Positions 24,275 through 24,426 of a stretch of 64,000 nt of DNA are shown here, piece after piece (positions within the stretch are counted from its first letter, which is position 1; the number at the start of each line of letters is the position of its first letter). The notes below the pieces were generated by a model. The model made no database searches. It saw only the letters and a list, made by a program, of their open reading frames with translations, and was not told the DNA's origin. Location: positions 2,046,001 through 2,110,000 of the forward strand of contig CP085825.1 in NCBI GenBank assembly GCA_020809705.1. Reading direction: 5' to 3'. Both the position numbers and the translations under genes were made by a program. Origin of the DNA: Calonectria ilicicola (taxonomy: Eukaryota > Ascomycota > Sordariomycetes > Hypocreales > Nectriaceae).

Positions 24275-24281
24275 AAAAAAA
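24275..24281 (-). terminator. RNA polymerase III terminator (T7)
   Basis: A run of seven A on the plus strand, hence T7 in the tRNA transcript sense, 21 bases after the tRNA 3' end. Four or more T suffice for Pol III termination. Confidence 0.65.
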
Positions 24282-24302: not shown

Positions 24303-24426
24303 TAGCAATTGCACGTTTCGATCGTGCGACCTCCGGGTTATGAGCCCGGCTGGAAGGAGTTAGCTTGATGCATCCTGCCAATGGAATTGAATGTAACATA
24401 CCGCGCTTCCACTGCGCCAAATTGCT
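24303..24426 (-). tRNA. Initiator tRNA-Met (CAU) gene with an mRNA-type intron at 26/27
   Basis: Removing 24350-24401 leaves 72 bases that fold completely: acceptor AGCAATT/AATTGCT plus A73, D stem GCGC/GCGC with a 7-base loop, anticodon stem CCGGG/CCCGG with loop CTCATAA, and T stem GCACG/CGTGC with loop ATCGAAA. Initiator hallmarks are A1-U72, three G:C pairs closing the anticodon stem, and A54/A60 in the T loop. The A box (TGGCGCAGTGG) and B box region are intact, and a T7 terminator follows. The tRNA would start translation by delivering Met to the 40S subunit. The intervening 52 bases are at neither the normal intron position (37/38) nor a position the tRNA splicing endonuclease is known to use in fungi. 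Either an unusual functional gene or a very recent insertion. Confidence 0.85.
24350..24401 (-). other. 52-nt spliceosomal-type intron inside the tRNA
   Basis: On the minus strand the insert starts GTATGT, has GCTAAC shortly before the end and finishes TTCCAG. These are the same donor, branch and acceptor signals as in the protein-coding introns of this window, and the length (52) is also typical. It separates G26 from C27 exactly. Confidence 0.75.

Follow-up and report, generated by a model that had tools for sequence, protein, structure and literature searches.

The gene at positions 24,303 to 24,426 raises the question of whether a nuclear tRNA gene can be interrupted by an intron of the kind found in protein-coding genes and, if so, which polymerase would transcribe it and which machinery would remove the insert. 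In the textbook view, nuclear tRNA introns are handled by a dedicated endonuclease and a ligase. A first-pass annotation of the 64,000-nt stretch of Calonectria ilicicola DNA analysed here (the window) had described an initiator tRNA-Met (iMet) gene split by an mRNA-type intron, and had named RNA polymerase III (Pol III) and RNA polymerase II (Pol II) as possible routes of transcription. The sequence comparisons presented below lead us to read the insert as a true spliceosomal intron (U2-type, GT-AG) in a working iMet gene that would be transcribed by Pol III, with a probability of roughly 0.88.

The interrupted initiator tRNA gene and its family

The anatomy of the gene is summarized in Table 1. 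Nucleotide 17 is absent from the tRNA, and the insert, which follows 25 nt of exon, therefore falls between nt 26 and nt 27 and away from the 37/38 site used by the tRNA endonuclease, as had been claimed. When the insert is omitted, ARAGORN returns a tRNA-Met(cat) of 72 nt with a full cloverleaf. Eukaryotic initiator tRNAs are marked by the cloverleaf, the CAT anticodon, A1-T72, three G-C pairs in the anticodon stem, A54 and A60. In this gene A1-T72, GGG/CCC at 29-31/39-41, A54 and A60 can be read from the sequence. The earlier statement that the tRNA bases fold perfectly and carry all initiator marks holds for the marks and for the ARAGORN cloverleaf; by minimum energy, however, the bare 72 nt do not fold into an exact cloverleaf. 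In the intact window, neither ARAGORN nor Rfam at gathering scores found a tRNA at this gene or elsewhere.

Table 1. Features of the interrupted iMet gene, numbered from the first letter of the window.
Feature	Positions	Strand	Observation
iMet gene, interrupted	24303..24426	-	ARAGORN calls the joined exons tRNA-Met(cat); the genome search recovered nine paralogues, this one included
Exon 1, tRNA nt 1-26 (25 nt; nt 17 absent)	24402..24426	-	Invariant in 9/9 genes
mRNA-type intron, 52 nt, between nt 26 and 27	24350..24401	-	Same site in 9/9 genes; body diverged, signals invariant
5' splice site GTATGT	24396..24401	-	GTATGT in 7/9 and GTAAGT in 2/9 iMet genes
Branch site CTAAC	24359..24363	-	CTAACT invariant in 9/9; branch A 9-10 nt before the intron end
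3' splice site CAG	24350..24352	-	AG invariant in 9/9 iMet genes
Exon 2, tRNA nt 27-73 (47 nt)	24303..24349	-	Identical in 8/9; T to C at nt 69 in one copy
A box, Pol III internal promoter (nt 8-19), in exon 1	24409..24419	-	Letters read; positions according to PMC3978253
B box, Pol III internal promoter (nt 52-62), in exon 2	24314..24324	-	Letters read; positions according to PMC3978253
Run of seven T (RNA strand), likely Pol III terminator	24275..24281	-	In 9/9 genes five or more consecutive T start 7-29 nt past the tRNA

The genome (69.9 Mb in 12 contigs) was searched for further copies, and all counts from these searches are lower bounds. With the 124-nt gene as query, nine loci were recovered on six contigs, eight of them at full length and one, which is interrupted twice, in two pieces. 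A continuous 72-nt query matched eight loci, each in two separate pieces (16 in all), the ninth locus being absent from the matches listed; no contiguous iMet copy was found with this query in the 70-Mb genome, as far as a lower-bound search can tell. When up to two mismatches were allowed, a pattern for the iMet anticodon arm gave 15 matches (17 in the reversed control), and the nine exact ones are the nine split genes. The other six carry two mismatches each and were set aside as not iMet-like by eye. All nine iMet genes found are split at 26/27, and an uninterrupted copy was not found.

ARAGORN names all nine copies tRNA-Met(cat) of 72 nt when the insert is omitted and none of them Met when the unspliced sequence is given with introns allowed: seven are then misnamed (Val, Arg, His, Pyl) with other introns and two are not called. 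By ARAGORN and by the marks read from the sequence, the joined exons of all nine genes have the features of a functional iMet. Chance or a local assembly oddity can be rejected because nine loci on six contigs share the position of the insert, its donor, its branch site and its acceptor. The interrupted iMet gene is confirmed as a genuine observation, and the nine loci with diverged inserts speak against an assembly error, one of the ways in which the first-pass annotation had thought that it might fail. Another was the existence of intact copies alongside decay of the split one; the count of iMet genes in this genome revealed nine split genes, no intact intronless copy, and only one exon change in one copy.

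The exons of the nine genes have a mean identity of 99.7% and are identical in eight of them, the change at nt 69 in the remaining copy (L004) creating an A4-C69 mismatch in the acceptor stem. The intron bodies are 42% identical on average (range 15-97%) compared with 38% for shuffled letters, and the downstream flanks are at background (36%, and 36% when shuffled). The upstream 60 nt reach 47% compared with 30% when shuffled, and the notion that the flanks are pure background was rejected for this side, where there are real elements in common. Identical exons in dispersed genes, with introns and downstream flanks near the shuffled background, argue against the view that the split genes are inactivated copies or pseudogenes and that a working iMet gene lies in sequence absent from the assembly. 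Such a view can draw on PMC4090602, according to which eukaryotic tRNAs with an insertion in the D or T arm are for the most part presumed pseudogenes, and on the search for 5.8S rDNA. Neither the Rfam model nor a conserved DNA query found 5.8S rDNA, the empty answer of the DNA query proving nothing; the assembly may lack the rDNA or the search may have skipped it, and for this reason an intact iMet gene could lie in missing or skipped sequence. Eleven of the 12 contigs are 4.2-8.4 Mb long, however, the splice signals are kept, T-runs are present, and the acceptor stems of the tRNA-Pro genes described below contain a compensatory change. With exons intact save for one change in one copy and an intronless copy not found in an assembly of unproven completeness, we consider it highly improbable that these genes are pseudogenes.

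The introns of two iMet genes on different contigs (L005 and L006) differ at one position and their flanks are visibly different, which suggests copying or gene conversion confined to the gene. The split-iMet pattern had no matches in collections of viral and genome contigs that are not meant to hold fungi, an uninformative result; the unsplit pattern matched in six viral contigs.

Splice signals and other interrupted tRNA genes

The only invariant columns in the iMet introns are GTA-GT, CTAACT and AG. The first introns are 52-55 nt long, and their donors (GTATGT or GTAAGT in 9/9) conform to GTRNGT. One gene (L009, C2:4975715) contains a second insert of 54 nt at 46/47, with the form GTAAGC...CTAAC...GAG and intact flanking exons, and another copy of this second intron was not found in the genome search. 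CTAAC is present in all ten iMet introns, which all end in AG; in the first introns the branch A lies 9 or 10 nt short of the 3' end. This pattern of constraint, with bodies near the level of shuffled letters, is what would be expected from selection for spliceosomal removal and little else.

For comparison, 34 candidate mRNA introns of 46-92 nt (range scanned, 44-99 nt) were collected between open frames in the window and at other loci. Their donors include GTATGT (7), GTGAGT (7) and GTAAGT (4), their branch sites are CTAAC (15), CTGAC (10), CTAAT (6) and CTGAT (3), and their branch A lies 5-23 nt from the end, the upper limit being set by the scan. An earlier pass of the scan had given 25 candidates and one iMet intron. 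The likeness to introns of neighbouring genes noted in the first-pass annotation stands in so far as these candidates share the signals of the insert, but the comparison is a weak one: the scan itself demanded such motifs, and a decoy motif yields 9 candidates compared with 34, which amounts to support and not to proof. HET domains were seen in two of six proteins scanned, in keeping with a filamentous ascomycete.

Retention of donor, CTAAC and AG in ten of ten iMet introns, while the bodies diverge, also speaks against the alternative in which the tRNA endonuclease removes the inserts as non-canonical introns, comparable to those of C. merolae and nucleomorphs, and their GT-AG appearance is coincidental. 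Introns at other tRNA positions occur in archaea and some algae (PMC4090602), and the canonical anticodon-loop introns of this genome imply that the endonuclease is present. A weak consensus helix also joins the intron ends: its seven weak pairs form three short runs and connect the intron 5' end with the branch-site region. One or two sequences break four of these seven pairs or have a gap there, and two-sided changes are absent from all seven, as they are from the 28 pairs of the whole consensus fold. A shared bulge-helix-bulge at the junctions was not seen by eye in folds of the nine iMet precursors, an assignment that relies on folding only, and the iMet introns occupy 26/27 and 46/47 and not the canonical 37/38. 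Moreover, two further tRNA families in this genome hold both intron types side by side. Removal by the endonuclease appears, on these grounds, scarcely credible.

The two families emerged from pattern searches. A pattern consisting of a branch site, AG and the 3' half of a tRNA gave 18 matches (17 in the backwards control), comprising the eight single-intron iMet genes, a tRNA-Pro gene (L104) and nine others; the sole one of the nine that was examined (L105) contains no tRNA by ARAGORN. A wider intron pattern gave 69 matches (26 in the reversed control), among them two tRNA-Pro and three tRNA-Val genes. Of the 69, 20 were examined as whole loci; the two Pro matches, two in L105 and those in at least three tRNA-Arg genes (L026, L091 and L092) fall in loci examined before, and the rest were judged from the match alone.

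All three tRNA-Pro(CGG) genes found carry a 53-54-nt mRNA-type intron between C34 and G35, and all three have a canonical 24-nt intron at 37/38 besides. ARAGORN calls the unspliced genes Thr(CGT), returns Pro(CGG) with an intron at 37 when the first intron is removed, and returns a 72-nt Pro(CGG) when both are removed (L106 and L107); for L108, its own Pro(CGG) gene and intron were read separately. The pair C7-G66 of two copies is replaced by A7-T66 in the third, a compensatory change that spans both introns. Two tRNA-Pro(CGG) genes stand in tandem at C4:986012-986403, 238 bp from start to start, with diverged introns.

Three tRNA-Val(TAC) genes recovered with the wider pattern have a 55-nt intron in the D loop, at 20a/21, together with a 7-nt canonical intron. 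All three are called Val(tac) by ARAGORN once both introns are removed; with only the first removed, two are called Val(tac) and one Lys(ttt). The mRNA-type introns of the Pro and Val genes (three of each) begin with GTAAGT or GTAAGC, in agreement with the donor consensus.

The remaining matches to the wider pattern were rejected where they could be assigned. Fourteen share one common body, and the eight examined (L109-L116) were read as tRNA-Ile(AAT) genes with a canonical intron only, and rejected because their CTAAT is the anticodon loop of tRNA-Ile(AAT); ARAGORN divides them equally, with four named Ile and four Thr(agt). Further matches fall in tRNA-Arg D arms, belong to a dispersed repeat or are unassigned, and nine of the loci examined (L120-L128) have no tRNA by ARAGORN. 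The repeat-like sequence, of CTAATCCGCCGACTAAAGCTAATTTTTCAAAAGGCCGAGGGTTCGAACCC type with a B-box-like end, occurs in about 16 places among the matches, e.g. C9:1273440 and C5:6389976.

Among ordinary tRNAs, 58 distinct ARAGORN calls were obtained in 58 loci, 16 of them with anticodon-loop introns, which were seen in elongator Met, Ile, Arg and Lys. None of the 58 shows the mRNA-type intron signature, in a set that is biased towards genes visible to ARAGORN; the Rfam tRNA search behind most of these loci scored 63 of 2542 candidates, and some Ile genes are named Thr. Upstream of most of eleven tRNA-Asp(GTC) genes (L040-L050) lies a conserved leader, about 45 nt long, that terminates in a hairpin, mostly GTGGTTG...CAACCAC. 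Many of these genes also have a trailer hairpin before the T-run, and TATATA further upstream, features that the other tRNAs examined lack by eye. These leaders and trailers perhaps belong to a longer Pol III unit.

Transcription of the split genes and the U6 parallel

The A and B boxes are intact in the iMet exons, T-runs follow the Pro and Val genes as well as all nine iMet genes (Table 1), and by sequence the iMet genes hold the three parts of a type 2 Pol III unit (A box, B box and T-run). CAA triplets, which suit Pol III starts, lie upstream of most of the nine. The string TTTT is absent from all 18 tRNA and U6 introns (10 iMet, 3 Pro, 3 Val and 2 U6) and present in 9 of the 34 candidate mRNA introns (Fisher p 0.02, computed on paralogues that are not independent), or in 10 of 25 candidates in the earlier pass of the scan. 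For the ten iMet introns alone, its avoidance is a trend that does not reach significance (p 0.09; 19% of shuffles of their own letters lack TTTT), and it was not accepted as proof of Pol III transcription.

A AGGGYTAGGGCA box starts 50-62 nt upstream of five of the nine iMet genes (L003, L005, L007, L008 and L009). The box resembles telobox-like elements of Pol II genes. This similarity, and the fact that capped Pol II RNA is the normal substrate of the spliceosome, are what would favour a spliceosomal route that starts from host non-coding RNAs made by Pol II, with RNase P and RNase Z trimming the ends of these precursors. Four of the nine genes, including the copy in the window, have no upstream AGGGYTAGGGCA box, however, and the same intron kind occurs here in U6. 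Together with the intact A and B boxes, the T-run beginning within 29 nt of every iMet 3' end and the absence of TTTT from the 18 introns, these observations make Pol II precursors unlikely. Of the two routes considered in the first-pass annotation, the T-runs and the A and B boxes suggest Pol III over Pol II. Near matches to AGGGYTAGGGCA within the window are at chance level, and the box was not seen in the 80 nt upstream of the other tRNAs examined, with a similar string in one tRNA-Asp gene. The element resembles a telomere repeat.

Two U6 genes were found, L097 (C1:6580508) and L098 (C3:884181), with 47 of 4404 candidates scored. Both are interrupted by mRNA-type introns, at two different sites and each with CTAAC as read by eye, and both introns contain GGTTCGANTCCCAC, a tRNA-like B box. 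The Rfam match at L097 takes in part of the intron and not the 5' exon. In fission yeast, U6 contains an mRNA-type intron that is spliced and is thought to derive from reverse splicing, which offers an earlier example of splicing in a Pol III transcript (PMC10484740); a tRNA-like B box in Schizosaccharomyces U6 is indicated by a title in the reference list of the same article.

We infer the polymerase, the use of the spliceosome and the order of steps from these sequence features. Pol III, acting through the exonic A and B boxes and the T-run terminator, would yield a precursor with a tRNA part of about 125 nt. The nuclear spliceosome would recognise GTATGT, CTAAC and CAG and release the 52-nt intron as a lariat, after which nt 26 would be joined to nt 27 and mature iMet could form. 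For tRNA-Pro(CGG), a spliceosomal step would assemble the anticodon before the tRNA endonuclease removes the 37/38 intron. The Val(TAC) and U6 transcripts may follow the same spliceosomal route, with a later endonuclease step for Val too. More speculatively, the introns may have arisen by gain in Pol III transcripts, perhaps through reverse splicing as proposed for U6.

Because an uninterrupted iMet gene was not found, translation initiation would depend on the spliceosomal step. It is likely that several tRNAs, among them the products of all iMet genes found, are transcribed by Pol III and then processed by the spliceosome, that translation initiation is wholly dependent on splicing, and that the Pro(CGG) anticodon is made at the 34/35 junction before the endonuclease acts, with two machines working in series.

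Relation to known introns and significance

The proposal of an mRNA-type intron in a tRNA is supported by the comparisons made here: the joined exons form iMet, 9/9 genes are split and the splice signals are kept. Among the closest known systems are introns in other small structured RNAs. Fungal U6 introns (S. pombe and others) are likewise mRNA-type introns in a short structured Pol III RNA. The host here, however, is a tRNA and not a component of the spliceosome, so that the gain cannot be put down as simply to proximity to the catalytic centre. Within this genome the promoter boxes are exonic in the tRNAs, whereas the B box is intronic in both U6 genes. Fungal U3 snoRNA also carries spliceosomal introns in a small structured RNA, but fungal U3 is a Pol II gene, which differs from the Pol III transcription that we propose for the tRNAs. 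As of 2017, no small structured RNAs other than U3 and U6 were known to carry introns often, and a tRNA case is not described in the accessible part of that source (PMC5832005).

Canonical 37/38 introns, which are also present in this genome, interrupt nuclear tRNA genes as well and must be removed for function. The introns described here differ in position (26/27, 46/47, 34/35 and 20a/21), in length and signals (52-55 nt with splice signals) and probably in the machine that removes them. Archaeal, C. merolae and nucleomorph tRNA introns share with them positions outside 37/38, including the D arm and the variable region (PMC4090602; PMC3978253). Those of archaea and C. merolae, however, are tied to the bulge-helix-bulge (PMC4090602; PMC3978253), of which a shared form was not seen here. 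Non-canonical eukaryotic tRNA introns are described for nucleomorphs and C. merolae in PMC4090602, whose main text does not contain the stem "spliceosom", and disruption of tRNA genes is treated as bulge-helix-bulge-type in PMC3978253. Nothing on point regarding a spliceosomal tRNA intron was found in the accessible parts of PMC13148404 and PMC2784804. Titles and the beginnings of abstracts in the open full-text literature, a scope that mostly leaves out subscription papers, revealed no described spliceosomal intron in a tRNA gene. The inserts may represent a new class of tRNA intron or, on a stricter reading, a new host for a known intron type.

If the spliceosomal reading is correct, there is a new tRNA intron class, Pol III transcripts beyond U6 can be routinely spliced, and the start of translation is tied to splicing. 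The genome would also provide a system for studying intron gain, with a family interrupted at a fixed site, one copy carrying an extra intron, and unrelated tRNAs and U6 interrupted at other sites. Split genes may have been overlooked elsewhere since ARAGORN and Rfam miss or misname them here. Lastly, if the spliceosomal step were skipped in the Pro gene and the endonuclease acted alone, the product would carry a Thr(CGT) anticodon on a Pro body according to ARAGORN, a possible source of mistranslation.
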